Source: Akkermansia muciniphila
Lineage (GTDB): Bacteria; Verrucomicrobiota; Verrucomicrobiia; Verrucomicrobiales; Akkermansiaceae
DNA length: 64,000 nucleotides
NCBI RefSeq assembly: GCF_900184965.1
Contig: NZ_FXYA01000204.1
Location: 62,001-126,000, forward strand
Reading direction: 5' to 3'
In this document: positions 44,790-58,179 of the stretch, one piece after another
How positions within the stretch are numbered: position 1 is the first letter of the stretch
Layout of the letters: each line of letters starts with the position of its first letter
The notes under the pieces: model-generated
Told to the model about the DNA's origin: nothing
The model's database searches: none
The model's input: the letters and a program-made list of their open reading frames with translations, nothing else
Position numbers and translations under genes: made by a program

Positions 44790-45104
44790 AAAAAGGTCAG
44801 GGGAACGCGTCCGTGTTTAGGCGATAATGTGTTAGAGCACCGAATGACTAGTCCATACAGTTTGTGGACGCGTTCCCCATAGAATTTGACCGCGCCTGTT
44901 TCCCCTGGCGGCTGGCGGGACAGTTTTTCCCGGAGCTTTTCAGGGCGCAGCCCCGGCAGCAGCAGGGGCGCGAGGAGGAAAAAAGCCTGGAGAAGAAGGA
45001 CTCCGTTCTGGCGGATGCGCCGCCGGAGCGTTTTCTTTCACTGTTTCTTTCCGAATCGGGGCTGATCATGAATCAAAGTTAGTTCACTCTAACTATTCTT
45101 GCAA
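44790..45104 (-). other. Candidate iron-regulated short leftward transcript
   Basis: A leftward promoter, TTGCAA (45104-45099), 17 nt, TAACTT (45081-45076), contains the palindromic DtxR-type box at 45077-45094. About 200 bp downstream, a 13-bp inverted repeat GGGGAACGCGTCC (44800-44812) and GGACGCGTTCCCC (44866-44878) is followed on this strand by TTTTT, which could terminate transcription. The enclosed region has a 73-codon leftward frame from 45069 with a Cys cluster (CCCRGC), an opposing frame at 44864-45082, and a start-less leftward frame with a hydrophobic stretch. None is convincing as a gene, so a regulatory RNA is possible. Confidence 0.4.
45077..45094 (-). promoter_or_regulatory. 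DtxR-type operator, site 1
   Basis: The 18-nt sequence AGTTAGTTCACTCTAACT is a near-perfect palindrome of form TTAG-N6-CTAA. It lies between the -35 and -10 boxes of the leftward promoter described above and about 110 bp upstream of the DtxR-family gene. Confidence 0.7.
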
Positions 45105-45143
45105 GAAAAAAGTTTGGTCAATCTAATATTTTCCAGGAAGAGA

Positions 45144-45194
45144 TTGACTTGGACAGATCCTTGGCTATTGTTTTTTTTGTTAGTCAAACCTAAT
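45144..45194 (+). promoter_or_regulatory. Promoter and operator site 2 of the DtxR-family gene
   Basis: TTGACT (45144-45149), 16 nt, TATTGT (45166-45171) is a reasonable promoter. The box GTTAGTCAAACCTAAT (45179-45194) covers the expected start point, 12 bp before the ATG at 45206. This arrangement implies autorepression. A degenerate further box lies at 45112-45127. Confidence 0.65.
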
Positions 45195-45205
45195 AAGAGT
45201 CAACC

Positions 45206-45658
45206 ATGATACACAAAAAATTCCCCACTCCGGAGTTGAGCAACAGTCTGGAGGATTATATTGAGGCTGTCCGCAACATTGAGTTGGAAAAGGGGTTCGC
45301 CACCGTAGGGGAGATTGCGGAAGCCCTGAATGTGAAAAAGCCTTCCGCTTCACTGGCCATGAAGCAGTTGAAGGAACGCGGCCTGGTGGAATACACGCAG
45401 TATTCTCCCATTGCCCTGACCGGGGAAGGCCGTTATTACGCGGACCGGGTCATTTCCTGCCATACCATGGTGAAGGAGTTCCTTATGACAGTGCTGAAGA
45501 TGGAGGAAAAACGCGCCGATGAAGTGGCCTGCTGCATTGAACATATCATGACGCTGGAGGAAATCTCCCGTTTCCGGATTCTGACGGAACGTTGCAGAGA
45601 GAGGGGTATAGAATACATGGAGCAGTCCGCTTCCCCGGCCGGCTGCTCCGCGCCGTAA
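45206..45658 (+). CDS. DtxR/MntR-family metal-dependent transcriptional regulator
   Basis: The 150-residue protein has an N-terminal winged helix (residues 12-70: LEDYIEAVRNIELEKGFATV, LNVKKPSASLAMKQLKERGL) and the dimerisation/metal domain (72-128). Metal ligands can be read by comparison with the family: Asp 17 matches MntR Asp 8, while Cys 109, Glu 112 and His 113 in ACCIEH match DtxR Cys 102, Glu 105 and His 106. His 86 is also conserved. It lacks the SH3-like domain of DtxR. The neighbouring feo genes and boxes suggest iron repression, but the mixed ligand set leaves manganese possible. Confidence 0.9.
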   Translation: MIHKKFPTPELSNSLEDYIEAVRNIELEKGFATVGEIAEALNVKKPSASLAMKQLKERGLVEYTQYSPIALTGEGRYYADRVISCHTMVKEFLMTVLKMEEKRADEVACCIEHIMTLEEISRFRILTERCRERGIEYMEQSASPAGCSAP

Positions 45659-46167
45659 ACAGGAACCGTAATCCGGAATGCTTTAGCCATTCTAAGCGGA
45701 GGCGGCGGAAACACCTTGAAAAACAGAAGAGAAGAAACTTTCGCTGCTACGCGGAGAAACAAGGGCCGGGCTGGTTTTCCGGATTTCTCACGTTCTTCCG
45801 GTTCGTGGCTGCGGAGCGTTTCAGGCCTGAGTTTGTCCGGCGTGCGGAAAATGGTCTGGGGCTGGTTTCTTCCCGGATGTTTGCCGGTTTCTCTGTGGCC
45901 TTCCGCTGGATGTGCATGGCTTTCAACAGGCCCTGAACGGCCCGTTTCCGGGCAGCGGGACTTTTCACTGCTTTCGCATTAATGGCGGCGATCATTACTC
46001 CGACACCCTCCCCCATAGGTCCTTGTCGTTCATATAACTCATGGTCATTATGTTGATTGGGTTCATCCGGCCTTGACGGCATGTAGCCGCTTTTCTTCCG
46101 GCAAGATGGGATTATATCCAATCCAGTCTGCATTTTCTATGCGTTTTCTCGACGTTTATGTTGAGTT

Positions 46168-46187
46168 AAATTAGTGGAAACTAATTT
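46168..46187. promoter_or_regulatory. DtxR-type operator, site 3
   Basis: AAATTAGT-GGAA-ACTAATTT is a perfect 20-nt interrupted palindrome containing TTAG-N6-CTAA. It lies 120-135 bp upstream of site 4, in AT-rich DNA; which promoter it serves is unclear. Confidence 0.6.
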
Positions 46188-46293
46188 TTTTGATGGGTGT
46201 AAGAATATTTTTAATATATTGATAATAAGTAAAATATAATAAATCGTTATGGTGATGGTCGGAGCCGGTCAAGGGAATCGGAAAGAAAAAGTG

Positions 46294-46322
46294 TTGACCG
46301 AATAGTTAGTTCAATCTAACTT
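46294..46322 (+). promoter_or_regulatory. Promoter with embedded DtxR-type operator, site 4
   Basis: TTGACC (46294-46299), 17 nt, TAACTT (46317-46322). The palindrome AGTTAGTTCAATCTAACT (46304-46321) fills the spacer and its right half forms the -10 box. It precedes the small Cys-rich gene at 46334 and probably also the porin gene. Confidence 0.7.
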
Positions 46323-46333
46323 TGCCGTGTTGC

Positions 46334-46525
46334 ATGAACTTGGCTCATACAGGACTTCGCCGTTTCTTCCGCTGGATCTGCCGGTACAGGAAACTGGCCG
46401 GGCTGCTCATCCGGCGTCCCAGATACCGTCTGCTTTGCGGAGACTGTGAGTTCTGTATGGGGGCATGCGGCAGAGCTGTGAAAGAGCAATCCCGGCAGAA
46501 CGGAAGCGGAGCACTTTCCCTGTAA
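46334..46525 (+). CDS. Small basic Cys-rich protein under a DtxR-type box
   Basis: I do not recognise this 63-residue product. Residues 8-33 are rich in Arg, aromatic and Leu residues (RRFFRWICRYRKLAGLLIRR), and are followed by a C-x2-C-x2-C-x3-C cluster (LLCGDCEFCMGACGRAV), suited to binding iron, zinc or an Fe-S cluster. The ATG lies 12 bp after the operator-promoter, and the frame ends 85 bp before the porin gene. Its codon use resembles that of its neighbours. The operator supports an iron-linked role. Confidence 0.55.
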   Translation: MNLAHTGLRRFFRWICRYRKLAGLLIRRPRYRLLCGDCEFCMGACGRAVKEQSRQNGSGALSL

Positions 46526-46610
46526 AGAAAAGCGCCCCCTCTCCGCCGCCCTGGATCAATAATACAATCATTATTCCACAAATATCCAACAATAAGACTA
46601 ACCGTTTTCT

Positions 46611-47828
46611 ATGAAGAAGCATAGCATAATGGCAATGGCGTTGACGAGCCTCATGGCTCTTCCTGTAATCGCTCAAGACAGCACCCCTGCTATTGGTGAT
46701 ATTTTACAGGGTATCAACATGTTTACCCCGGAAGAAGACGATCCTGCCTACAAAGTGAAGGCCAATGATAAGTACGGCGCCCAATGGGCTGTGGATATGG
46801 CCTACGGACTTTGGAATATGGAAAAGGTTTCCAATGTTAAGCGCCATACCAACCTGGCTCTTCTTCATGCCCAGCTCAATCAGCGTCTTATTGAAGACAA
46901 GGCCAACGGGGGAACCTGGTTGCGTGTGGAATTTTCCGGCTCATGGGGGCTGGATCGCGAATCCGCCCAGAGCGATACGTTTTTCACTGAAGCCTATGCC
47001 ACGGCTTCCGGTTTGCACGCTGACGCGATGGGACCTCATGAAGGGATATTCCCTGAAGTGGCCCTGATGCAATACTTTGCGGGGAAGCGCGGCTGCCTCA
47101 TTGCAGGCATGGTAAACCTCACCAACTATGTTGATGCCGTCAGCATCGCCAATGATTCTTTCTCTTCTTTCACCAATGACGGGTTTGTGAACTCCACTAT
47201 TCTTCCTCTGGTGGACAGCAATGTTGGCGGTATTCTGCAAGTTGAACTCAACCGCAATAATTACATGATGGTTGCCGTTTCCCGCACGGGATGCGATTCC
47301 GGATACAACCCCTTTAATTCCGATCATGGCGATGGTTATGCCGTGGTTGGCGAATACGGCCATATTTTTGCCGATGGAGCTGCGACTCTCCGCGTCAATC
47401 CGTTCTATGCCAGTACGGATGTGGACATGGATGACGGGACCGGGGAACGCCGCCGCCAAAATGCCGGACTTGTCGCGAGCATTGAATATATCCCCTGCGA
47501 GCCTTTGACCATTTACTCGCGAGCCGGGTTTGCCGCCAAACAATACTTGAGCAATTCCGCTGAATTCTCCGTGGGAGCCAACGTTAAGCTCTTCCCTTCC
47601 CGTGAAGATGACTTCCTGGGCATTTCCTACGGTGTGTTCAAAGGGCAGACTCCCTGTGACGGAGAGCGCGCTGAGCATAACCGCGAACAAGTGCTGGAAG
47701 TCATGTACAGCTTCCAGGTGAATGATTACTTCAAGGTTGTTCCGCATTTCCAGTACATTGCGAATCCGGCTTACAGCGCTTCCAGCGAGAATATTCTCTG
47801 GGGCGTTCAGGCAGTCTTTTCTTTCTGA
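46611..47828 (+). CDS. Outer membrane porin, OprB/carbohydrate-porin-like
   Basis: The 405-residue product has a signal peptide (MALTSLMALPVIAQ, cut near residue 22). The mature part is rich in Gly, aromatic and polar residues in alternating strands, and it ends in Phe (VQAVFSF), as beta-barrel proteins do. The stretch FPEVALMQYFAGKRGCLIAGMVNLTNY resembles the OprB-type porins. Its position downstream of the Cys-rich gene and DtxR-type box suggests it may be metal-regulated and could carry an iron compound, though sugar transport is the family default. Confidence 0.75.
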   Translation: MKKHSIMAMALTSLMALPVIAQDSTPAIGDILQGINMFTPEEDDPAYKVKANDKYGAQWAVDMAYGLWNMEKVSNVKRHTNLALLHAQLNQRLIEDKANGGTWLRVEFSGSWGLDRESAQSDTFFTEAYATASGLHADAMGPHEGIFPEVALMQYFAGKRGCLIAGMVNLTNYVDAVSIANDSFSSFTNDGFVNSTILPLVDSNVGGILQVELNRNNYMMVAVSRTGCDSGYNPFNSDHGDGYAVVGEYGHIFADGAATLRVNPFYASTDVDMDDGTGERRRQNAGLVASIEYIPCEPLTIYSRAGFAAKQYLSNSAEFSVGANVKLFPSREDDFLGISYGVFKGQTPCDGERAEHNREQVLEVMYSFQVNDYFKVVPHFQYIANPAYSASSENILWGVQAVFSF

Positions 47829-47983
47829 CCAGCTGATTCTGGACGCGGCCGCCTTTTCTCCTGGATTGGGCATGGCCGGAATTTGATGAAAACGCAGTCA
47901 TATTAAATCTTCCTTATCTGTCTCCATGCAGTGAGCGGAATCCTGCGTGGAAAAGATATAGAAGGGGTCTGCATGACCTGGCG

Positions 47984-48024
47984 GCAGCGCCGCATTCTCA
48001 ATCAGGTAGAGGATGCGGCGCTGC
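47984..48024 (+). terminator. Hairpin downstream of the porin gene
   Basis: Perfect 12-bp arms GCAGCGCCGCAT and ATGCGGCGCTGC with a 17-nt loop, followed by TTATTTGATT. It lies 155 bp after the porin stop. The rest of the 47829-48288 gap holds nothing recognisable. Confidence 0.55.
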
Positions 48025-48254
48025 TTATTTGATTACGGAGCGTTTGCCCTCCTTGATTGACGTCTGCCGGCTGATCTGACCGGCAATCCATGCCGGCTCT
48101 TGGAATGGCCCTCAGTCTTCCGGGGCTGTCATAAAATACCGTCAAATGAAGATAAGGCTCCCTGCCGCCGTTCCCGGAAAAGCAGGTTTTTTGCCACGCC
48201 GGAAGATGGATGGAAACCGTAACGTTTCCGGGGCTCGAAGCGTTTAAAACCATA

Positions 48255-48282
48255 TTGACTTGAACGGAAATTATCTTAAACT
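48255..48282 (+). promoter_or_regulatory. Possible promoter of the 135-residue membrane protein gene
   Basis: TTGACT (48255-48260), 16 nt, TAAACT (48277-48282). The ATG at 48289 begins 6 bp after the -10 box, so if this promoter is used the mRNA would be essentially leaderless. Confidence 0.4.
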
Positions 48283-48288
48283 GACAGA

Positions 48289-48696
48289 ATGAGTAAGGTT
48301 CAATGGGAAATTTCAAATGATGAAGTGACCGACCGTGATACTGCTCTGCGCCGCTTGCAGGAAGGAACGACCGGCCACGTAGTGTGCGCCCGCGACGGTG
48401 CATGCCTCCAGTCGTACAAGGAAGCGGACGGCGTGTACCATTGCGAAATCGTATTCAAGGAGGATTCCTGCTGCCCGCCGGTATTCGCCGCCCCGGAAGG
48501 GGTGACGGGAAAGGAACTGGAAATGCTTTACGACCGTTTTGCCAATGGAGACGATTTTTCCTTTGTGGAAAAGGAATGGGAACCTCTGATGGCCGTGGAA
48601 TACCGCCACCGCCACAATGTGATGTGGTTCATTTTCCTGTTCATTGCGCTGGTAATTGCGGTTATGGCGGCGTACCAGCACGGCTGGATTAAGTGA
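48289..48696 (+). CDS. Hypothetical tail-anchored membrane protein
   Basis: The 135-residue protein has a soluble N-terminal region with scattered Cys residues (VVCARDGACLQSY, EDSCCPPVF) and a single C-terminal membrane helix (NVMWFIFLFIALVIAVMAAY, residues 108-128). No family was recognised. It converges on the feo operon, whose terminator lies just after its stop. Whether it is linked to iron handling is unknown. Confidence 0.6.
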   Translation: MSKVQWEISNDEVTDRDTALRRLQEGTTGHVVCARDGACLQSYKEADGVYHCEIVFKEDSCCPPVFAAPEGVTGKELEMLYDRFANGDDFSFVEKEWEPLMAVEYRHRHNVMWFIFLFIALVIAVMAAYQHGWIK

Positions 48697-48724
48697 CAGG
48701 GGCGGCATGCGACGCGGCAAAAAA

Positions 48725-48753
48725 CCTGCAAACCGCGGAAAACGGTTTGCAGG
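48725..48753 (-). terminator. Intrinsic terminator of the feo operon
   Basis: Arms CCTGCAAACCG and CGGTTTGCAGG enclose a 7-nt loop and are followed on the leftward strand by TTTTTT. It lies 28 bp after the last gene of the feo operon. Confidence 0.9.
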
Positions 48754-48781
48754 TTCTGGAAGGGAGGGCCGGAATTGGGGG

Positions 48782-48952
48782 CTAATCCCGTTTTCCGTGG
48801 TCGTGATGGTGGCCGCCGCAGCAATTTCCGCCGCAACAACCGTCGCTGTCGTTGCCGCAGCTGCCGCAGCAGTTGCCGCGCTTGCTGAGGATTTTGTATA
48901 ACGCGTAGGCCAGAGCCAGGAAAAGAAGGGTGGCGATGATATATGTTCCCAT
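48782..48952 (-). CDS. FeoB-associated Cys-rich membrane protein
   Basis: A 56-residue product read directly from the DNA. Residues 3-21 form a membrane helix (TYIIATLLFLALAYALYKI). The tail holds Cys pairs (NCCGSCGNDSDGCCGGNCC) and ends in GGHHHDHGKRD. This matches the small FeoB-associated Cys-rich proteins found after feoB in many anaerobes, possibly functional counterparts of FeoC. The seven-Cys, four-His tail probably binds Fe(II). It starts 27 bp after feoB and is followed by the operon terminator. Confidence 0.85.
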   Translation of the reverse strand: MGTYIIATLLFLALAYALYKILSKRGNCCGSCGNDSDGCCGGNCCGGHHHDHGKRD

Positions 48953-48979
48953 ATTGGTTAGTAGAGTTAAGGTGTGGGT

Positions 48980-51244
48980 TCAGCAGTCATTGGAGGCTGT
49001 ATAAGGTTTCTTTGCCACCAGGTAAATAAGACCCGGCAGGAGCAATAGGGCAACACTCTGTCCGATGCCGAAGGAAGCTTCCGCATAAATCCATGCTCCC
49101 AGCTGGTAGGTCAGGAAAGCCAGGCAGTACGCCAGGGCGCACATGTAGCCGATGGCGAAGAAAGTCCATTTGGCGCTGTTCATTTCCCTTCTGATGGCTC
49201 CCATGGCCGCGAAGCAGGGGGCGCAGAGAAGATTGAAAATCATGAAGGAGAAAGCGCTCAGGAACGTGAAGGCTCCCGCCTGGACAAGGCGGTCCCCTGT
49301 TTCCCTGATTTCCGCGTCTTCATCTTCTTCTTCCGCTTCAGCGGCGGATTCCCCGGAACCTTCCTCCAGGGATGCCTGGAGCTCCTGGCCGGCGGGGGAC
49401 ATTTCCTGCGTTTCGGAGGGTTCCTCCGTTTTTTCCGCCTCATCGTCTCCGGAACCGCCGTCCGCATACAGGACGCCGAAGGTTCCGACTACGTTTTCCT
49501 TGGCGATCAATCCGGTGATGGTAGCCATGGCGGGTTTCCATTCCCCCCAGCCCAAAGGCTGGAAGACAGGCGCGGCCGCATTGCCGATGGAGGCAAGCAT
49601 GCTGTCATTCTGCTCTACGGAATCCACCTTCCAGTTATAGCTGGAGAGGAACCAGATCAGGGCACTGGACACGAAGATGACGGTTCCGGCTTTTTGCACG
49701 AAAGCCTTGCAGCGGTCCCATGCATGGATGATGACGTTCTTCCAGGCCGGGATGTGGTAAATGGGAAGTTCCATGACGAAGGGGGTGGGATCCCCGGCGA
49801 ACATGGCGGTCTTTTTCAGAATGAGGCCGGAAAGGATGATGGCGCCCACCCCGATGAAATAGGCTCCCGGAGCCACCCAGGAATTTTCCGGGAAAAAGGC
49901 TCCGGCAATCAGGGCAATGATGGGGGTTTTGGCCCCGCAGGGGATGAACGTGGTGGTCATGATGGTCATGCGCCTGTCCTTTTCGTTCTCAATGGTTCGG
50001 GTCGCCATGACTCCGGGAACGCCGCACCCCATGGAAACAAGCATGGGGATAAAGGATTTCCCGGAAAGGCCGAATTTGCGGAAAATGCGGTCCATGATAA
50101 AGGCTACGCGGGCCATATAGCCGCAGTCCTCCAATATGCCCAGGCACAGGAACAGTACCGCCATTTGCGGGAGGAAGCCCAGAACGGCCCCCACGCCGGC
50201 AATCACGCCGTCCTGGATCAGGCTTTCCAGCCAGGGGGCGCAGCCGGCGCTTTCCAGCAGGCCTCCCACCCATTCAGGAACCCATTCCCCGAAGAATGTA
50301 TCATTGGCCCAGTCCGTACCCCACGCGCCTATCGTCTGGATGGAGATGTAATATACAGCCCACATGACGACGGCGAAAATGGGGAGGCCCAGCCAGCGGT
50401 TGGTGATGATGCGATCAATCCTGTCGCTGCCCGTCAGGCCGCCGGGGCTGGCTTTAACGACGGCATTGTTGATGATGCGGGAAATGGAATTATAGCGTTC
50501 ATTGGTGATAATGGACTCGCTGTCGTCATCCATTTTCCGCTCCATGGTTTCAATAATCCCGTTAATGCGGGATTGTTCCTCGGGATGGAGAGCGAGCTGG
50601 TCCGCGACTTTCCGGTCTCTTTCGAAAACTTTAACGGCAAACCATTTTTTCTGCTGGTCCAGGCATTTGCCGGTGATGATGTCCCCAATTTCTCCGATGG
50701 CTTTTTCCAGGTGGTTCGGAAAGTGGACGGCCTGCGGGGGGCGTGCATCGTCCGACGCAGCCGTCGTTACCACGGCGTCTATCAGTTCACGGATGCCGGT
50801 CCCCTTGAGAGCGCTGATTTCCAGCACCCGGCAACCGAGGTCGCGTGAAAGTTTTTCCGTGTCGATCCTGTCGCCGCGCTTCCGGACAATGTCCATCATG
50901 TTCAGTGCGATAATGACGGGAACGCCCAGTTCGCAAAGCTGGGTGGTGAGGTAAAGATTGCGTTCCAGGTTGCTGCCGTCAACCAGATTCAGGATAAGGG
51001 AGGGGTGGTCCGTGACCAGGTAATTCCGGCTGACGATTTCCTCCAGAGTATAAGGGGAAAGGGAATAAATGCCCGGAAGGTCTTCAATGATGATATTTTT
51101 ATGCCCTTTCAGGCGGCCTTCCTTTTTTTCCACGGTGACGCCGGGCCAGTTTCCGACGTATTGGCTGGCGCCTGTCAGGGCGTTAAAAAGCGTGGTTTTT
51201 CCGCAGTTGGGGTTGCCCGCCAGGGCGATGGTAATGTTGCTCAT
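48980..51244 (-). CDS. feoB: Ferrous iron transporter B
   Basis: FeoB is the Fe(II) uptake channel of anaerobes. The 754-residue protein has an N-terminal G domain with G1 GNPNCGKT (residues 10-17), G3 DLPGIYSL, G4 NMMD and G5 SALKG, then a helical domain. The membrane part includes the gate motifs VSMGCGVPGVMATR and FIPCGAKTPI. An unusual acidic insert (about residues 600-650, EAEEEDEDAE) sits in a cytoplasmic loop before the last helices. It follows two feoA genes (77 bp gap) under a DtxR-type box. Confidence 0.96.
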   Translation of the reverse strand: MSNITIALAGNPNCGKTTLFNALTGASQYVGNWPGVTVEKKEGRLKGHKNIIIEDLPGIYSLSPYTLEEIVSRNYLVTDHPSLILNLVDGSNLERNLYLTTQLCELGVPVIIALNMMDIVRKRGDRIDTEKLSRDLGCRVLEISALKGTGIRELIDAVVTTAASDDARPPQAVHFPNHLEKAIGEIGDIITGKCLDQQKKWFAVKVFERDRKVADQLALHPEEQSRINGIIETMERKMDDDSESIITNERYNSISRIINNAVVKASPGGLTGSDRIDRIITNRWLGLPIFAVVMWAVYYISIQTIGAWGTDWANDTFFGEWVPEWVGGLLESAGCAPWLESLIQDGVIAGVGAVLGFLPQMAVLFLCLGILEDCGYMARVAFIMDRIFRKFGLSGKSFIPMLVSMGCGVPGVMATRTIENEKDRRMTIMTTTFIPCGAKTPIIALIAGAFFPENSWVAPGAYFIGVGAIILSGLILKKTAMFAGDPTPFVMELPIYHIPAWKNVIIHAWDRCKAFVQKAGTVIFVSSALIWFLSSYNWKVDSVEQNDSMLASIGNAAAPVFQPLGWGEWKPAMATITGLIAKENVVGTFGVLYADGGSGDDEAEKTEEPSETQEMSPAGQELQASLEEGSGESAAEAEEEDEDAEIRETGDRLVQAGAFTFLSAFSFMIFNLLCAPCFAAMGAIRREMNSAKWTFFAIGYMCALAYCLAFLTYQLGAWIYAEASFGIGQSVALLLLPGLIYLVAKKPYTASNDC

Positions 51245-51321
51245 GAATGGTTTCCTTGTCTTGATGAATGAGTGCGCCGTCTTGCTGTCAGGTCAGGAAA
51301 CGTGCGGTAATAAAAGCGGAA

Positions 51322-51552
51322 TCAATGGATGTGGATATTCTCGGCTTCCAATTTGCGGATGGAGAGTTCGTACCCGCGGACAGTAACTTCAATAGGGTCT
51401 CCCAGGGGGGCTACTTTGCGGATGAATATCTGCGTTCCCTTGGTAACTCCCATGTCCATGATGCGCCTTCTGACCGGGCCTTCCCCCGCCAGTTTCCCGA
51501 CGGTGACGGTTTCCCCGATGAGGGCGTCTCTTAATGTACGTTGTTTGGTCAT
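51322..51552 (-). CDS. feoA: FeoA-domain protein (second)
   Basis: The 76-residue SH3-like FeoA protein begins at the ATG at 51552 (MTKQRTLRDALIGETVTVGK) and contains RRRIMDMGVTKGTQI and DPIEVTVRGYELSIRKLEA, the typical FeoA pattern. The longer frame upstream overlaps the other feoA gene and is not used. FeoA supports FeoB activity. It lies between the first feoA (31 bp) and feoB (77 bp). Confidence 0.93.
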   Translation of the reverse strand: MTKQRTLRDALIGETVTVGKLAGEGPVRRRIMDMGVTKGTQIFIRKVAPLGDPIEVTVRGYELSIRKLEAENIHIH

Positions 51553-51583
51553 AGAATAATGGTTGATTGTTGGATGAAAGAAC

Positions 51584-51796
51584 TCAGGCAACGAATATTT
51601 TGCTGGCAAGCGCCTTGCTGAGAGCAATTCTGGCTCCTTTGACGTTGACAATGAAATTGCCTCCGTTTTCGGAAACGATGGAAATCGCGCTCCCGGCAAT
51701 GAATCCCAGACTTTCCAGAAAACGCCGGGTTTCATCCCTGCCATGGATTTTGTTGACTTGGCGGATATCGCCGATGTTGAGCATAGAGAGTGGCAT
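51584..51796 (-). CDS. feoA: FeoA-domain protein (first)
   Basis: The 70-residue protein starts at the ATG at 51796 (MPLSMLNIGDIRQVNKIHG). It has ETRRFLESLGFIAGSAISIV and VNVKGARIALSKALASKI, the second half matching the FeoA fold with its conserved Gly-x-Arg-x-Ala-Leu. It is less like standard FeoA than its neighbour. Two separate feoA genes before one feoB is a known arrangement in several anaerobes. It is the first gene of the operon. Confidence 0.9.
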   Translation of the reverse strand: MPLSMLNIGDIRQVNKIHGRDETRRFLESLGFIAGSAISIVSENGGNFIVNVKGARIALSKALASKIFVA

Positions 51797-51824
51797 GGTG
51801 CGTGTATGAATCAAGTTCGGGAGA

Positions 51825-51853
51825 AAGTTAGTCTTATCAAACTAACAAGTCAA
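51825..51853 (-). promoter_or_regulatory. feo promoter with embedded DtxR-type operator, site 5
   Basis: On the leftward strand TTGACT is followed after 17 nt by TAACTT, and GTTAG/CTAAC half sites (51827-51846) occupy the spacer and -10. Here the half sites are 10 nt apart, but a TTTG-N6-CTAA register is also present, which may reflect two overlapping dimers. The start of feoA lies 28 bp downstream. Confidence 0.7.
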
Positions 51854-51917
51854 TGATATTATTCGGCTATCTTTCTTTCATTTATTCAAAGCTCATTTAA
51901 TATGAACTGATTATATA

Positions 51918-51931
51918 TTAGTTTAATCTAA
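51918..51931. promoter_or_regulatory. DtxR-type operator, site 6
   Basis: TTAG-TTTAAT-CTAA matches the consensus exactly. It lies about 65 bp upstream of the feo promoter in AT-rich DNA and may be an auxiliary site for it. Confidence 0.6.
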
Positions 51932-52004
51932 TTCTTGTTAATGGAGAGAAGGTGGAAATTCCCCGGTAATGCCTGCCGTAGGACACGGAAGGAAGATACA
52001 AAAA

Positions 52005-52036
52005 AGCCGCGCTAATGAATGTTCATCAGCGCGGCT
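52005..52036 (-). terminator. Intrinsic terminator of the peroxidase gene
   Basis: Arms AGCCGCGCT and AGCGCGGCT with a 14-nt loop are followed on the leftward strand by TTTTT. It lies 23 bp after the peroxidase stop. Confidence 0.85.
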
Positions 52037-52059
52037 GGAAAAGGAGTTTTTCTTCAGAT

Positions 52060-53439
52060 TCAGGAGGCGGGGCAAACTTCGCCCCGGACAGGTTTACCGT
52101 TGTATTCTCCGGTGAGCGACTTCAGGAAGGCTACCAGAAGTCTCACCTCCTTCTTGTCCAGTTTGTCGTAACCGAGCTGGTAATGATACATCTTCGTAAT
52201 GGCTTCCTCCAGCGTCCGTGCGGAGGCGTCATGCATGTACGGCCAGGTGAGTTCCACGTTGCGGAGGGTAGGAACACGGAACCGGTGTCTGTCCGATTCC
52301 TTTTTGGAGAAATTCATCAGACCGTTATCGTCATTGGTTTTGGCGCGTCCGGCAAAGAAATCGCCTTTAAGGTCGGCGTATTCAAAAGACTGTCCTCCCA
52401 TGGCAGGACCGGTGTGGCAGGTTTGGCAGCCAAGCTTCAGGAAAAGCTTGTAACCCTTTTTGGCGTTCTCGCTGATGGCGTTTTTATCCCCTTTCAGGTA
52501 ACGGTCAAACGGGCTGTTCGGCGTGATGAGGGTCTTTTCATATTCCGCGATGGCATTCGTGATGGTTTCACCGGTGAACCCCTGAGGGTAAACCTTTTTG
52601 AATTCCGCGGCAAAAGCGGTGTCCTGATCCAGCTTGGCAGCGATCTTCTTCCAGTCATCCGGATGTTCGTAACCCATTTCCACCGGATTCAGGGGCGGCC
52701 CTCCGGCCTGTTCCTGGAGGTTGGCAGCGCGTCCGTCCCAAAATTGCTTGGCATGGAAAGCGGCATTGAAGACGGTAGGGGCGTTGATGCCGCCTTTCTG
52801 GCCGCGGACTCCGGTGGAGGTGGGCAGGTTGTCCGTCCCGGCTTTTTCCAGGGAATGGCAAGAAGCGCAGGAAACGGTATTGTCCGTGGAAAGGCGCACG
52901 TCATGGAAAAGCTTGTAGCCCAGGGCCACTTTGGCCGGATCCGCGGGGAGGGCGTCCGGAATGGGGGCAAGAGGGGAAAGGGCGTATTCCTCACCTACCA
53001 TGTCGCCGAAAATTTTCAGACGCTCATCCTTGATCCACTGGAGCATGGCGTTTTTCTCCCGGAGAGTGAGCGTACTGCCCCAGTGCACCATGGTGTAGGA
53101 AGTGGGAGGCATGGAATTGATTTGAAGCACATGCTCCAGCTTGGAAAGGGTGACGGCGGTGGGAGGCTCTTCCATATTGTAGCTGCGCTGCCCGTCCCTG
53201 ATATGGCGCGCCAGCAGGCCTCCGGAAAGAGTATTGACCAGTTCGGAAATATGCGTGCCGGGGCTGTGGCAGTCCGCACACTTGGCGTTCATGGTCTGTG
53301 CGGTGATTTCCGCCGCCTGGGCGGACGTCAGTGGCTTGACATTCTGGTTCGGCAGGAACAGGGGGGCGACAGCCGCCGTCACGATGACCGTGCCGCCCAG
53401 AATGGCTCCTGCCTTGATGAAGGAACGTGTTTTGCTCAT
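52060..53439 (-). CDS. Triheme cytochrome c peroxidase
   Basis: This 459-residue periplasmic enzyme would reduce hydrogen peroxide with electrons from the quinone pool or a cytochrome. It has an N-terminal anchor (residues 8-28) and three heme c motifs: CADCH at 54-58, CASCH at 191-195 and CQTCH at 338-342. The last two belong to the classic diheme peroxidase module (FDRYLKGDKNAISENAKKGY between them). The extra N-terminal heme domain matches the E. coli YhjA type, which is about 465 residues. It lies 66 bp downstream of lipA on the same strand. Peroxide defence is plausible for a mucus-layer anaerobe. Confidence 0.92.
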   Translation of the reverse strand: MSKTRSFIKAGAILGGTVIVTAAVAPLFLPNQNVKPLTSAQAAEITAQTMNAKCADCHSPGTHISELVNTLSGGLLARHIRDGQRSYNMEEPPTAVTLSKLEHVLQINSMPPTSYTMVHWGSTLTLREKNAMLQWIKDERLKIFGDMVGEEYALSPLAPIPDALPADPAKVALGYKLFHDVRLSTDNTVSCASCHSLEKAGTDNLPTSTGVRGQKGGINAPTVFNAAFHAKQFWDGRAANLQEQAGGPPLNPVEMGYEHPDDWKKIAAKLDQDTAFAAEFKKVYPQGFTGETITNAIAEYEKTLITPNSPFDRYLKGDKNAISENAKKGYKLFLKLGCQTCHTGPAMGGQSFEYADLKGDFFAGRAKTNDDNGLMNFSKKESDRHRFRVPTLRNVELTWPYMHDASARTLEEAITKMYHYQLGYDKLDKKEVRLLVAFLKSLTGEYNGKPVRGEVCPAS

Positions 53440-55196: not shown

Positions 55197-56195
55197 ATGA
55201 GTTTTTCAGAACCCTGTGCCCTGGCCGTGGATTTCGGCGGCACGAGCATCAAAATGGGCGTAACGGCGGGGGATCGTATTCTGGCGACGGCCGACCGCAT
55301 CCCTACCGCCATGTTCGAAAGCCCGCAGGCAATCATTGACGCCATGATTGCGGCCGCCCGCACCCTGCGCGGACAATTCCCCACCGCCTGCGTGATGGGC
55401 ATGGGGATGCCGGGATGGTGCGATTACCAGCAGGGAGTGCTTTACCAGCTCACCAATGTAAGGGTCTGGGATCGGCAAATTCCGGTGAAAGAGATGATGG
55501 AGCAGGCCCTGGGGCTCCCCGTCGTGCTGGATAATGACGCCAACTGCATGGCTTATGCGGAATGGAAGCTGGGCGCCGGGCGCGGCATGTCCAGCCTGGT
55601 GTGCCTGACGATGGGAACGGGGATAGGCGGGGGAATCGTGGTGCATGACCGCATGCTGCGGGGGAGGCGGCTTTCCGCTGCGGAACTGGGCCAGACCAGC
55701 ATTCATTACCAGGGAAAAACGGGACCGTTCGGCAGCCGTGGAGCCATTGAGGAATACATCGGCAACAACGAGCTGGCGGCGGAGGCGGTTAAACGGTATG
55801 CCGGGGCGGGAATCGTCAAGACGGCGGATGAATGCACGCCCAGACATCTGGACGAGGCCGCCCGGTCCGGATGCCCCATAGCCCTCCAATTGTGGGAGGA
55901 TACGGCGGAAATGCTGAGCTGCCTGATCATGAACCTGATGTATACGCTGGTGCCGGACGCCTTCATCATCGGGGGCGGCGTGGCCAAGGCAGGGGATTTG
56001 TTGATGAAGCCACTGTTGGAGAACCTCAGGAAACAGTTGTTTCCTCTTCTCATGGAGGATTTGAGAATTCTGCCGGCCAGGTTTGGAGCGGAGGCGGGGC
56101 TGCTGGGGGCGGGAGCCATGGCAATGGACGAATTCATGGGGCTGGGGATTTTGGAACGGTTTAAAAACAAGAAATCACCCCAGGCTTCTTGTTAG
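55197..56195 (+). CDS. ROK-family sugar kinase
   Basis: The 332-residue kinase has the ATP-binding phosphate loop VDFGGTSIKMGV, the sugar-binding NDANCMAYAEWKLGAG and TMGTGIGGGIV, and a C-terminal IIGGGVAKAG. These define the ROK family, which phosphorylates glucose, ManNAc, GlcNAc or related sugars. The usual zinc motif CxCGxxGCxE is absent: the corresponding stretch reads GPFGSRGAIEEY, without Cys. The sugar cannot be assigned. The N-terminal ATG at 55197 gives a standard length. Confidence 0.85.
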   Translation: MSFSEPCALAVDFGGTSIKMGVTAGDRILATADRIPTAMFESPQAIIDAMIAAARTLRGQFPTACVMGMGMPGWCDYQQGVLYQLTNVRVWDRQIPVKEMMEQALGLPVVLDNDANCMAYAEWKLGAGRGMSSLVCLTMGTGIGGGIVVHDRMLRGRRLSAAELGQTSIHYQGKTGPFGSRGAIEEYIGNNELAAEAVKRYAGAGIVKTADECTPRHLDEAARSGCPIALQLWEDTAEMLSCLIMNLMYTLVPDAFIIGGGVAKAGDLLMKPLLENLRKQLFPLLMEDLRILPARFGAEAGLLGAGAMAMDEFMGLGILERFKNKKSPQASC

Positions 56196-56205
56196 ATTAG
56201 ACTAA
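56192..56205 (+). promoter_or_regulatory. DtxR-type operator, site 7, before the P1B ATPase gene
   Basis: TTAG-ATTAGA-CTAA matches the consensus exactly. It overlaps a likely -10 box (TAATAT/TATAAG around 56203-56211), about 49 bp before the ATPase start. No clear -35 box was found. Confidence 0.6.
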
Positions 56206-56253
56206 TATAAGGCTTGCCATGCCGGAGCGGCAGGCGTACAAGCGGAACAGGTC

Positions 56254-58179
56254 ATGAGTACGGATCATCCCCCTGAACATCTTCCGGAAGGAGCTTCCTG
56301 TTGTTCCGGAAGCTGCTGTTCTGGAAGCCGTTGCAGTTCTGGCGACGCCATCGGGCCTGTTCCCGCCGTGCTGGGCATTACCCTGTTCATCAGCGCTCTG
56401 GCGGCGGGAGGCGGTTCCTGGGCCGGTGTGGCCGCCTATGCGGGCGCCTATCTGCTGATAGGCTGGGATGTGCTGAAGGCCGCTTTTATGGGACTGATGC
56501 GTGGTCGCGCCATAAATGAAAATTTCCTGATGAGTCTTGCTTCCCTGGGGGCGATGTTCCTGGGGGACTATTCCGAGGCGGTGGGGGTGATGCTGTTCTA
56601 CCGCGTGGGAGAGTACCTTCAGGAACGTGCGGTAGGCAGTTCCCGCCGGTCCGTAAGCGAATTGATAAATCTGAGGCCTGAGGCCGTCCATGTGAAAAAA
56701 GCCGGCGCCGTAGATGACGTCCCTCTTTCCGAGGTTCTGCCCGGCTCCCTGATTGAAGTGCGTCCCGGAGAACGCGTTCCGTTGGACGGCATGGTGACGG
56801 GAGGCTGTTCCGTGCTGGATACCTCCGCCATGACCGGGGAATCCCTGCCGGTGGAAGCCGGGGCCGGAAGCCCTGTGCTGGCGGGGTACATCAACGGGCA
56901 GGGGGTGCTGGAAGTGCGTACGGAGCGGGACTGGCGGCATTCCGCTCTGGCGAGGGTTCAGGAACTGGTGGAGGCCGCGTCTGGCCGCAAATCCCCTCTG
57001 GAGGGGAGGCTGTCCTCATTTTCCCGCATTTATACGCCGCTGGTGATTTTCATAGCCGTCCTGGTATTTTTGCTTTACCCACTTGTGACGGGCGGAAGCT
57101 GGGCGGACGGGCTGTTCCGCGCGCTGGTCCTGCTGGTGATTTCCTGTCCCTGCGCGCTGGTGCTATCCATTCCGCTGGGCTTTTTTGCCGGAATAGGGAG
57201 AGCGGCGAGGCAGGGGATTCTTCTGAAAGGAAGCAATTATCTGGATGCCCTGCGGAAGGTGAAGACGGTGGTGTTCGACAAAACCGGAACCTTGACGGAG
57301 GGTGTTTTTTCCGTGGATGAAGTGCTTCCCCGTGACGGCGTTTCCCCGGAAGAGTTGCTGTACTGGGCGGCTCATGCGGAGCTTTCCGCCTCCCATCCGC
57401 TGGGGCGTTCCATTGTGGAGGCCTATGAAGGGGCTCTGTTCCCGGACCGCGTGGCGGAACTCGTGGAGGTGACGGGCGGGGGTGTTTCAGCCCGCGTGGA
57501 AGGGAAACTGGTTCTGGTGGGAAAAAAGGCTTTTCTTCAGGAAGCCGGCATAAAAATGGAGGAGGGAGAAAACCGTGGCGTGACCGTTTATGCGGCGTTG
57601 GACGGCATTCTTCTGGGGTGCCTCCGCCTGTCTGACCGCCTCAAGCCGGGAGCGGAGCGCGCGGTGCGGAAATTGAGGAAACTGGGCGTTTCCAACCTGG
57701 TCATGCTGACGGGGGATTCTTCTTCCGCCGGGTCAGAGGTGGGGCTTAAACTGGGGATGGACGAGGTATTCTGCGGGCTGATGCCTGCCGACAAGCTGGA
57801 GCATGTGCGCCGGCTGCAACCTGAAAAGGGGCTGCTTGCCTTTGTGGGGGACGGCATGAATGATGCCCCCTCCCTCGCTGCCGCCGACATCGGCATTGCC
57901 ATGGGCGGCGTGGGGTCCGATACGGCTCTTCAGGCGGCTGACATAGTGGTGATGAAGGGAGATCCTTTGGCCGTTCCTCTGGGGATGATGCTTTCCCAAG
58001 CCACAGAGCGCATCATTGTGCAGAACATCGTTTTTATTTTGGGCGTCAAAATTCTGGTCATGGCGCTGGGTATTCTGGGGCTGGCGGGGATGTGGGCCGC
58101 CGTGATGGCGGATGTGGGCGTCTGCCTGCTTGCGGTGGGCAACTCCATGCGTATTTTCCGGGTGAAACTGGACATGTGA
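56254..58179 (+). CDS. P1B-type metal-transporting ATPase
   Basis: A 641-residue heavy-metal ATPase. The N-terminus is a short Cys-rich tail (SCCSGSCCSGSRCSSG) instead of a folded metal-binding domain. Then follow MTGESLPV (actuator TGES), the membrane metal site SCPCAL (CPC at 298-300), the phosphorylation site DKTGT (Asp 342), an SxHPLGRSI motif and VGDGMNDAPSL. The last helices read MADVGVCLLAVGNSMRIF, where the Asp resembles the Zn/Cd/Pb (P1B-2) group. The metal is thus uncertain. A DtxR-type box lies upstream. Confidence 0.93.
   Translation: MSTDHPPEHLPEGASCCSGSCCSGSRCSSGDAIGPVPAVLGITLFISALAAGGGSWAGVAAYAGAYLLIGWDVLKAAFMGLMRGRAINENFLMSLASLGAMFLGDYSEAVGVMLFYRVGEYLQERAVGSSRRSVSELINLRPEAVHVKKAGAVDDVPLSEVLPGSLIEVRPGERVPLDGMVTGGCSVLDTSAMTGESLPVEAGAGSPVLAGYINGQGVLEVRTERDWRHSALARVQELVEAASGRKSPLEGRLSSFSRIYTPLVIFIAVLVFLLYPLVTGGSWADGLFRALVLLVISCPCALVLSIPLGFFAGIGRAARQGILLKGSNYLDALRKVKTVVFDKTGTLTEGVFSVDEVLPRDGVSPEELLYWAAHAELSASHPLGRSIVEAYEGALFPDRVAELVEVTGGGVSARVEGKLVLVGKKAFLQEAGIKMEEGENRGVTVYAALDGILLGCLRLSDRLKPGAERAVRKLRKLGVSNLVMLTGDSSSAGSEVGLKLGMDEVFCGLMPADKLEHVRRLQPEKGLLAFVGDGMNDAPSLAAADIGIAMGGVGSDTALQAADIVVMKGDPLAVPLGMMLSQATERIIVQNIVFILGVKILVMALGILGLAGMWAAVMADVGVCLLAVGNSMRIFRVKLDM

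Follow-up and report, generated by a model that had tools for sequence, protein, structure and literature searches.

Within the window, by which we mean the whole 64,000-nucleotide stretch of Akkermansia muciniphila DNA analysed here, a 63-codon ORF lies between an mntR-type repressor gene and an OprB-family porin gene, with a convergent feo operon beyond (Table 1). Translation of the ORF gives MNLAHTGLRRFFRWICRYRKLAGLLIRRPRYRLLCGDCEFCMGACGRAVKEQSRQNGSGALSL*, in which the four-Cys cluster CGDCEFCMGACG is spaced Cys35-x2-Cys38-x2-Cys41-x3-Cys45. The initial annotation had described the product as an unrecognised 63-residue protein encoded ahead of a porin gene, with its ATG 12 bp after a promoter that embeds an operator. 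This layout is as described: the ATG lies 12 nt past the end of the palindrome and 11 nt past the -10-like TAACTT, and the next ORF is the OprB-family porin. Between the ORF and the porin, no intrinsic terminator-like site was found on the + strand.

Table 1. Features of the locus, with positions counted from the first letter of the window.
Feature	Position	Strand	Basis or remark
mntR operator, perfect AGTTAGN6CTAACT	45077..45094	.	upstream of mntR
Weaker operator before mntR	45111-45128	.	pattern search
Additional full-pattern operator before mntR	45178-45195	.	pattern search
MntR/DtxR-family metal-dependent repressor	45206..45658	+	PF01325 1.1e-13, PF02742 2.9e-10
Remnants of DUF6110-like gene and P-type ATPase	45614-46133	-	
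Second operator AATTAGTGGAAACTAATT	46169..46186	.	found in 11 of 12 loci; G068 lacks it
Promoter: TTGACC (46294-46299), 17-nt spacer, TAACTT (46317-46322)	46294..46322	+	sequence
DtxR/MntR-type operator AGTTAGTTCAATCTAACT, perfect palindrome	46304..46321	.	over promoter spacer and 5 of 6 -10 bases
5' arm of predicted stem: predicted mRNA 5' end, start codon, codons 1-9	46329..46360	+	RNA folds
63-codon ORF (P0001)	46334..46525	+	Arg-rich N-terminal half, four-Cys cluster, variable tail from about residue 50
3' arm of predicted stem: codons 38-46, with Cys38, Cys41 and Cys45	46446..46471	+	RNA folds
OprB-family porin, second cistron	46611..47828	+	PF04966 3.7e-11; 85 nt past the ORF
135-aa protein	48289-48696		C-terminal hydrophobic stretch
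FeoB-associated Cys-rich membrane protein	48782-48952	-	PF12669, 24.8 bits vs cut-off 27
feoA-feoA-feoB, convergent with porin	48980..51814	-	PF04023 twice, PF02421/PF07664
feoA leader segment GAACTTGATTCATACA	51803-51818	-	14 of 16 bases like the small-ORF start GAACTTGGCTCATACA
Operator with one mismatch over feoA promoter	51826..51843	.	pattern search
Additional feoA operator site	51916-51933	.	pattern search
DtxR-type operator and P1B-type ATPase	56190-58179		operator just before ATPase ORF 56254-58179

Conservation of the small ORF and its surroundings

Clear homologues of the ORF were found in 12 of 76 Akkermansia genomes, its own genome counted (E 1.4e-40 to 8.5e-20). Weaker protein matches in two further genomes (G022 and G014; E 1.5e-4 and 3e-3) lacked the Cys motif and were set aside. 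A profile of the 12 members was searched against 387 genomes of the phylum and matched 13 genomes, the thirteenth at E 9.8e-4 with an internal stop, and found nothing else convincing; a contig scan for close relatives returned two loci, both labelled A. muciniphila. Codons 1-52 are free of indels in all 12 genomes and stops fall at 63-68 codons, the tail differing in both sequence and length. Cys35, Cys38, Cys41 and Cys45 are invariant (12/12); Cys16 is not fixed, being Ser in 3 of 12 rows, and extra tail Cys residues occur in some members only. The full set of positions invariant among the 12 comprises M1, N2, L3, T6, G7, R10, R17, Y18, K20, A22-L25, R27-Y31, L33-G36, C38, C41, G43-G46, V49 and R54.

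Selection was assessed from pN/pS pooled over codons 1-49 of the 12 sequences, with 300 column shuffles as the null. The ratio was 0.298 in frame 0, 1.148 and 1.189 in frames +1 and +2, and 1.104, 0.440 and 1.246 in the reverse frames, and none of the 300 shuffles was as low as 0.298. Codons 12-36, which lie inside the RNA stem described below, gave 0.257 (0/300 shuffles as low), and the two stem arms gave 0.375. Counted over columns alone (15, 13 and 21 of them variable), the excess at third positions did not reach significance (P 0.35). Measured against single genomes, the ORF ratio was 0.15-0.38 for the more distant ones and 0.82 for G040, and the ratios of most neighbour genes were lower (mostly 0.04-0.16); the constraint on the peptide is therefore moderate, and the gap to the neighbours arises partly because dS in the ORF is low. 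As judged from the aligned genomes, these comparisons show frame-specific purifying selection on the small ORF, with its four Cys fixed. The initial annotation had put forward a real four-Cys ORF, with homologues in Akkermansia and codon-level conservation as its checks and loss of the frame or of the Cys pattern in relatives as the outcome that would count against it; the 12 homologues, the frame-0 ratio and the intact Cys pattern all uphold that proposal. A spurious ORF inside an intergenic leader, which its shortness, want of a family and restriction to one lineage might suggest, is extremely improbable, and a chance ORF was ruled out by the conservation across 12 genomes together with the frame-specific selection.

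No convincing relative of the protein was found in Pfam, NCBIfam or PDB, which agrees with its description as unrecognised, and the window protein itself had no Pfam match up to E 10. Weak Pfam matches were returned for a few members (At4g08330, TACI-CRD2, and Zn_ribbon_Nudix at E 0.0093 in one of 12), a PDB match to FANCL (E 0.0027, residues 12-42) was judged to be chance, and from PHROGs came just two families, both unnamed, with E no lower than 0.15. Small-protein surveys of Akkermansia were absent from the matches listed in the literature search. In three members, 12-13 basic residues stand against 3-6 acidic ones. Residues 8-26 are amphipathic, a level reached by 161 to 379 of 5000 shuffles. 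AlphaFold models of three sequences placed helices at 3-25 and 29-55 with a mean pLDDT of 58.7, which is low confidence and not usable.

The order mntR, small ORF, OprB porin, 135-aa protein and convergent feoB-feoA-feoA was found in the 12 genomes, with the flanking rlmB beyond the retrieved piece in five of them. Between mntR and the ORF, a P-type ATPase is present in four of the 12 genomes and other genes in one. In those four (G040, G045, G017 and G044) a DUF6110-like gene and the P-type ATPase are intact; in the window, only residues 81-165 or so of the ATPase are left, and the MntR frame, 150 aa long, extends into the remnant. The 135-aa protein is 87-100% identical in the 11 other locus-bearing genomes and had no NCBIfam match and, at best, a weak Pfam one (DUF3139, E 0.29). 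In three loci (L040, L041 and L042, from G047, G068 and G004), FeoB is about 42-65% like that of the window, in separate pieces, while the neighbours of FeoB are far more alike to the window's than FeoB is; by this comparison, FeoB in these genomes is apparently replaced or differently built. The FeoB-associated Cys-rich protein of the window has a Cys-rich tail that is highly variable among relatives.

The small ORF directly precedes a porin in 12/12 genomes, and the porin is of two types, about 27-33% identical to each other. A 439-aa porin begins 42 nt past the ORF in all nine genomes of one type, and a 405-aa porin begins 83-85 nt past it in the other three, namely the window species and its two nearest relatives. 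A search with the 405-type porin gave matches in at least 74 of the 76 genomes, and the best 30 loci of this longer list were examined. Three of them were the window species and relatives, and all of the remaining 27 had feoB upstream on the same strand within the 1.5-kb flank; in the loci inspected, a FeoB-associated Cys-rich gene lies between feoB and the 405-type porin. Given the split between 405- and 439-type porins among the 12 genomes, the downstream porin differs yet the small ORF is retained. We infer a role for both porin types in uptake linked to ferrous iron, and an exchange of the porin through which the small ORF persisted. One further genome, G015, encodes a 72%-identical MntR and a 439-type porin behind the same kind of promoter and operator and has no small ORF, the stretch from operator to porin holding just a 15-codon GTG frame. 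The porin therefore does not need the ORF everywhere, and on present alignments the ORF would have been either gained after the G015 split or lost in G015.

Promoter, operators and repressor

TTGAC, the 17-nt spacer and TAACTT are kept in 12/12 homologous loci, and AGTTAGN6CTAACT is present upstream of the small ORF in all 12 genomes having the ORF. A count over the whole genome (2.86 Mb) placed the pattern WRTTAGNNNNNNCTAAYW at 10 sites, or 20 matches with both strands counted, as against one forward and one reverse match for the reversed-pattern control, and 6 of the 10 sites fall inside 11.1 kb of the window. In the window only, with up to three mismatches allowed, there were 12 operator matches, two of them perfect, against 7.2 expected, a mild excess that 5 of 100 shuffles reached. 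The operator exceeds chance. Operators of the same type precede mntR, the small ORF, feoA and the P1B-type ATPase, and the feoA promoter (TTGACT-17-TAACTT) has a layout matching that of the small ORF. The second operator upstream of the ORF probably served a divergent DUF6110/P-type ATPase operon deleted here, since that operon is intact in four relatives and remnants of it persist in the window. The P1B-type ATPase, which has a Cys-rich N-terminus (CCSGSCCSGSRC) and a CPC motif, is likely a further member of the regulon.

The repressor encoded in the window is nearest to MntR structures (1on1, E 1.8e-12). Aligned with MntR, it retains Asp and Glu in the EDYIE segment as well as the EH pair, and a Cys-Cys stands, to within one residue, where MntR has Glu-Gly; these are positions that we take to be metal ligands of MntR. 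Close relatives of the window mntR (72% or more) were found in 13 of 76 genomes, and the other matching genomes gave 38-50%. A second DtxR-family repressor (G000:C82:94652-95035) is 49% identical to that of the window. The locus thus has both a repressor of the DtxR/MntR family nearby and common palindromic operators, as a DtxR/MntR regulon should, and the mntR product is likely the operator-binding protein. The metal is most likely iron or manganese, and the link to feo favours iron. Because of the synteny and the operators before mntR and feoA, the small ORF is read as the first cistron of a metal-starvation operon, so that the ORF and the OprB porin probably form such an operon under MntR/DtxR control. 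The initial annotation had suggested a metal chaperone, a sensor or an Fe-S protein made under iron shortage. Given the common operator type at mntR and at the feo operon, production under shortage of iron or manganese is probable; the kind of protein found no backing in family or structure matches.

The usual distance from a -10 element to the transcription start site puts the 5' end of the mRNA near 46329. With 11 nt between the -10 and the AUG in 12/12 loci, the predicted 5' UTR is about 5 nt or less, and the small-ORF mRNA is thus predicted to be leaderless or nearly so. In a study of A. muciniphila in mouse caecum, leaderless transcripts make up 10% of mapped start sites (PMC4782308).

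Predicted pairing of the start codon with the cysteine codons

RNA folding was carried out on single sequences spanning GTTGC to codon 50, and a consensus was obtained with RNAalifold on 11 sequences, the near-duplicate L035 being left out. In the consensus, 46329-46336 pair with 46464-46471 and 46344-46360 pair with 46446-46461. The first helix, of 8 pairs, joins the start codon to codons 44-46 and never varies, so it is uninformative on covariation. In the single-sequence folds the start codon pairs with codons 38-48 at a probability of 0.96-1.00 in 12/12 genomes, and the first eight nucleotides all pair at 0.91 or above. Of 200 dinucleotide shuffles made for each of the 12 genomes, 188 to 200 had a higher minimum free energy (MFE) than the native sequence (z -1.8 to -5.1). 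Synonymous recoding lowered the average pairing of the start codon to 0.10-0.22, compared with 0.97-1.00 for the native sequences, and in 11 genomes between 0 and 9 of the 150 recodings reached the native MFE, as did 36/150 in the window genome. When each sequence's own synonymous codons were permuted, pairing averaged 0.11-0.37 and the MFE was matched by 0 to 13 of 150 versions, with 6/150 folding as well or better in the window genome. For comparison, 90 other starts of long ORFs in the window, a set with many spurious frames, include 3 that pair as far downstream at P >0.9.

Alignment of the stem showed 257 of 264 cells paired (97.3%), as against 21.6-53.8% for slid versions. Two base pairs are changed on both sides (reached by 299/500 shuffles) and 8 further pair types are seen (395/500), while the both-side changes fill 6 cells and give a covariation score of 0.130, neither of which was reached in 500 shuffles. 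The compensated cells all belong to one clade (G047, G068 and G004) and may therefore reflect one event. In these three genomes a change of codon 8 from CTT to TAT (Leu to Tyr) co-occurs with changes of codons 39-40 from GAG TTC to GTA TCC, CTA TCC or CTA TTC, which keep two pairs and alter residues. Conversely, TGT to TGC at Cys38 (two genomes) and at Cys41 (one genome) keeps the Cys and breaks the pair. Codon changes in these two directions, although few events, are the strongest argument that neither the RNA nor the peptide is a mere by-product of the other. The dS of the ORF against the window sequence was below that of every measured neighbour in 10/10 comparisons (for example, 0.30 vs 0.40-0.67 in G045 and 0.54 vs 0.66-1.46 in G004; the nearest pair, G041, has almost no changes and means little), which supports an extra constraint beyond the peptide at the sequence level. 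Because the pairing is conserved, the nucleotide conservation around the Cys motif is partly common to RNA and peptide, and the invariant residues, Val49 and Arg54 aside, stop where the 3' arm stops. On these few events, RNA and peptide both look selected.

Folds of the growing transcript were computed for three genomes. For lengths up to 130 nt the AUG was unpaired with a probability of 0.42-0.97, which had dropped to 0.02 or less at 140 nt; longer transcripts mostly kept it paired, with exceptions (0.85 unpaired at 160 nt in G045). When the porin start was included, the AUG was unpaired with a probability of 0.43 in the window genome and 0.27 in G041, the remaining ten giving 0.01-0.16, and the leader up to the porin start gave z -0.59 in the window genome; among the 12, it is the window species that has the weakest fold. 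The start of the porin gene is itself unpaired about half the time and thus not occluded.

A search with an RNA model of the leader recovered the 12 ORF-bearing genomes, all at E 2.4e-37 or better, and one additional genome at chance level (E 0.3). Searches for known riboswitches and Rfam families in 44800-52200 gave two matches that fell far short of their gathering scores (26.5 bits against 69 and 16.3 against 100), and neither was accepted. The G015 leader was considered as a homologous RNA lacking the ORF and was dropped, as the RNA model does not match it: its clear match to the window is only 37 columns long, from the operator to the start codon (30 identities), its full-leader fold also closes the 5' end but is no better than shuffles (43/200), and its resemblance to the 3' arm was reached by 22 to 199 of 300 shuffles. 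In the feoA leader, a segment on the minus strand resembles the start of the small ORF (Table 1). A match of this kind was seen among the feoA leaders that were read (9 of 11 sought), weaker in several and most so in G004, and a common origin or a common RNA partner is possible.

Candidate functions of the small ORF

The initial annotation had overlooked this pairing, with which an action of the gene on the porin inside the mRNA becomes possible. We tentatively favour, at somewhat less than an even chance, a near-leaderless leader ORF (uORF) that gates expression of the porin and in which peptide and RNA both function. When metal runs short, the repressor would leave the operator. The AUG would be open to ribosomes mainly on transcripts below about 140 nt, or when other ribosomes occupy the Cys codons, and otherwise the stem would close over it, so that initiation would be time-gated, with a ribosome loading early or closely behind another. 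Translation of the ORF would set the read-through of the mRNA into the porin, for example by keeping Rho off. The Arg-rich four-Cys nascent chain could make the ribosome slow on the 3' arm in response to metal, to an Fe-S cluster or to cysteine supply. With codon 46-49 near its P site, a ribosome would lie over the 3' arm and, from the length of the exit tunnel, residues 17-46, the greater part of the conserved region, would lie inside the tunnel. This coincidence, a ribosome on the 3' arm while most of the conserved residues fill the tunnel, is why the leader ORF is slightly preferred. A narrower version, rather unlikely in our estimation, is a metal-sensing near-leaderless leader ORF whose Cys-cluster codons are also the RNA that locks its own start codon; binding of metal or an Fe-S cluster by the nascent cluster would slow the ribosome, the lock would be held open and the iron or manganese porin would be made. 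No RAPP-like arrest motif is present at the end of the peptide.

Nearly as likely as the leader ORF, and plausible in its own right, is a free-standing small cytosolic metal-binding or [4Fe-4S] protein that acts in trans under shortage of iron or manganese, as a Feo accessory, a metal buffer or chaperone, or a basic regulator binding RNA or membrane, with the stem tuning only its own translation. Purifying selection on residues 1-49, many of which lie outside the stem arms, the retention of Cys38 and Cys41 while their codons change, the excess of basic residues with the amphipathic segment, the operator common to feo and the persistence of the ORF before a different porin all fit such a protein, as does the weak Zn_ribbon_Nudix match of a single member. 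The Cys spacing also fits, by eye in 12/12 sequences, C-x2-C-x2-C-x3-C-[PEG], which we take to be the ferredoxin signature (PROSITE PS00198); however, the protein has a single Cys motif where ferredoxins presumably have two. Membership in ferredoxin Fer4 was rejected, with no Fer4 match and the best ferredoxin-like PDB sequence at E 8.3 over 12 positions. The want of a convincing relative in Pfam, NCBIfam or PDB and the low-confidence fold also weigh against a trans-acting protein, and this reading alone leaves the pairing of Cys codons with the start codon unexplained.

Two readings would instead dispense with much of the peptide. An attenuator like the mycobacterial polycysteine ORFs, in which scarce cysteine stalls the ribosome, the leader stays open and the peptide is discarded, would account for a predicted near-leaderless start and four Cys codons within 11 at the head of an operon, and has a precedent in mycobacteria (described in PMC9031893 and PMC4633059); it is nonetheless improbable, as the Cys codons are spaced rather than contiguous, the operator is of the metal type, the gene downstream codes for a porin and not for a cysteine function, and protein-level selection spans Arg17-Leu34, a stretch that would be superfluous if stalling were all. 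Even less probable is that the RNA alone matters, its 5'-terminal stem stabilising or regulating the porin mRNA and the frame being incidental: low dS and the conserved stem would be expected, but not a frame-specific pN/pS, an indel-free run of codons 1-52 in 12 genomes with the frame open to 63-68 codons, or Cys residues that are retained where pairs break.

The leader ORF was compared with known systems. Among the nearest is CruR (DUF2946) of Bordetella, described in PMC9426467 as a copper-responsive uORF of 145 aa, predicted to be exported, with a CXXC followed 45 residues on by a C-terminal RAPP arrest motif. As in that account, a Cys-motif ORF heads an outer-membrane-channel operon, the nascent chain would sense metal and the downstream gene would be controlled within the mRNA, and coupling to the porin could run via Rho (PMC9426467). 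Unlike CruR, the Akkermansia ORF is 63-68 aa long, has no evident export signal, no RAPP and another Cys spacing, and it combines a start codon paired with Cys codons with a DtxR/MntR-type operator. Membership in the CruR family was rejected, because PF11162 was absent from the matches of the window protein and of the 12 members, and a CXXC with RAPP 45 residues later is absent from the 12 sequences. The mycobacterial polycysteine ORFs, as described in PMC9031893 and PMC9094748, are likewise short, Cys-rich and at operon heads, and they are leaderless, as the Akkermansia ORF is predicted to be or nearly be; their Cys codons are contiguous, whereas in the Akkermansia ORF the Cys are spaced, the conserved peptide is Arg-rich and the gene that follows is a probably metal-regulated porin.

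Small proteins linked to ferrous iron uptake were also considered. In E. coli FeoC, four Cys (CX4CX2CX5C) form a [4Fe-4S] cluster, according to PMC8749426. FeoC is similarly a small cytosolic protein tied to ferrous iron uptake, but the Akkermansia ORF has another Cys spacing and heads a porin operon rather than lying downstream of feoAB; membership was rejected on that position and the lack of a Pfam FeoC match. The same study notes as an unanswered question whether functional peptides are made from the FeoB-associated Cys-rich ORFs (PMC8749426). The PF12669 protein resembles the small ORF in being a small Cys-rich product beside feo, and in sister lineages a PF12669-type gene between feoB and the porin has the place taken here by the small ORF. 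It differs in its N-terminal hydrophobic segment, and the window has its own copy; membership was rejected after hhalign against 15 Akkermansia members gave 5 aligned columns at a probability of 10.5. MntS and the Fur-regulated FbpA-C are tiny proteins repressed by metal-loaded MntR or Fur. They are not known to have the Cys cluster of the small ORF.

In the literature searched, few descriptions seem to exist of how Akkermansia controls its response to metal starvation: among the papers listed on Akkermansia with iron and FeoB, no title concerns iron regulation in this genus, and among those listed on such repressors one, a review, names Akkermansia with DtxR or MntR. The locus offers a concrete candidate regulon, consisting of mntR, feoAAB, the porin and the P1B-ATPase, with a readable operator. 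If the leader ORF model is true, the small ORF would be a new metal-linked uORF with overlapping RNA and peptide functions, in a class that has few members, and its setting would be a common gut bacterium.
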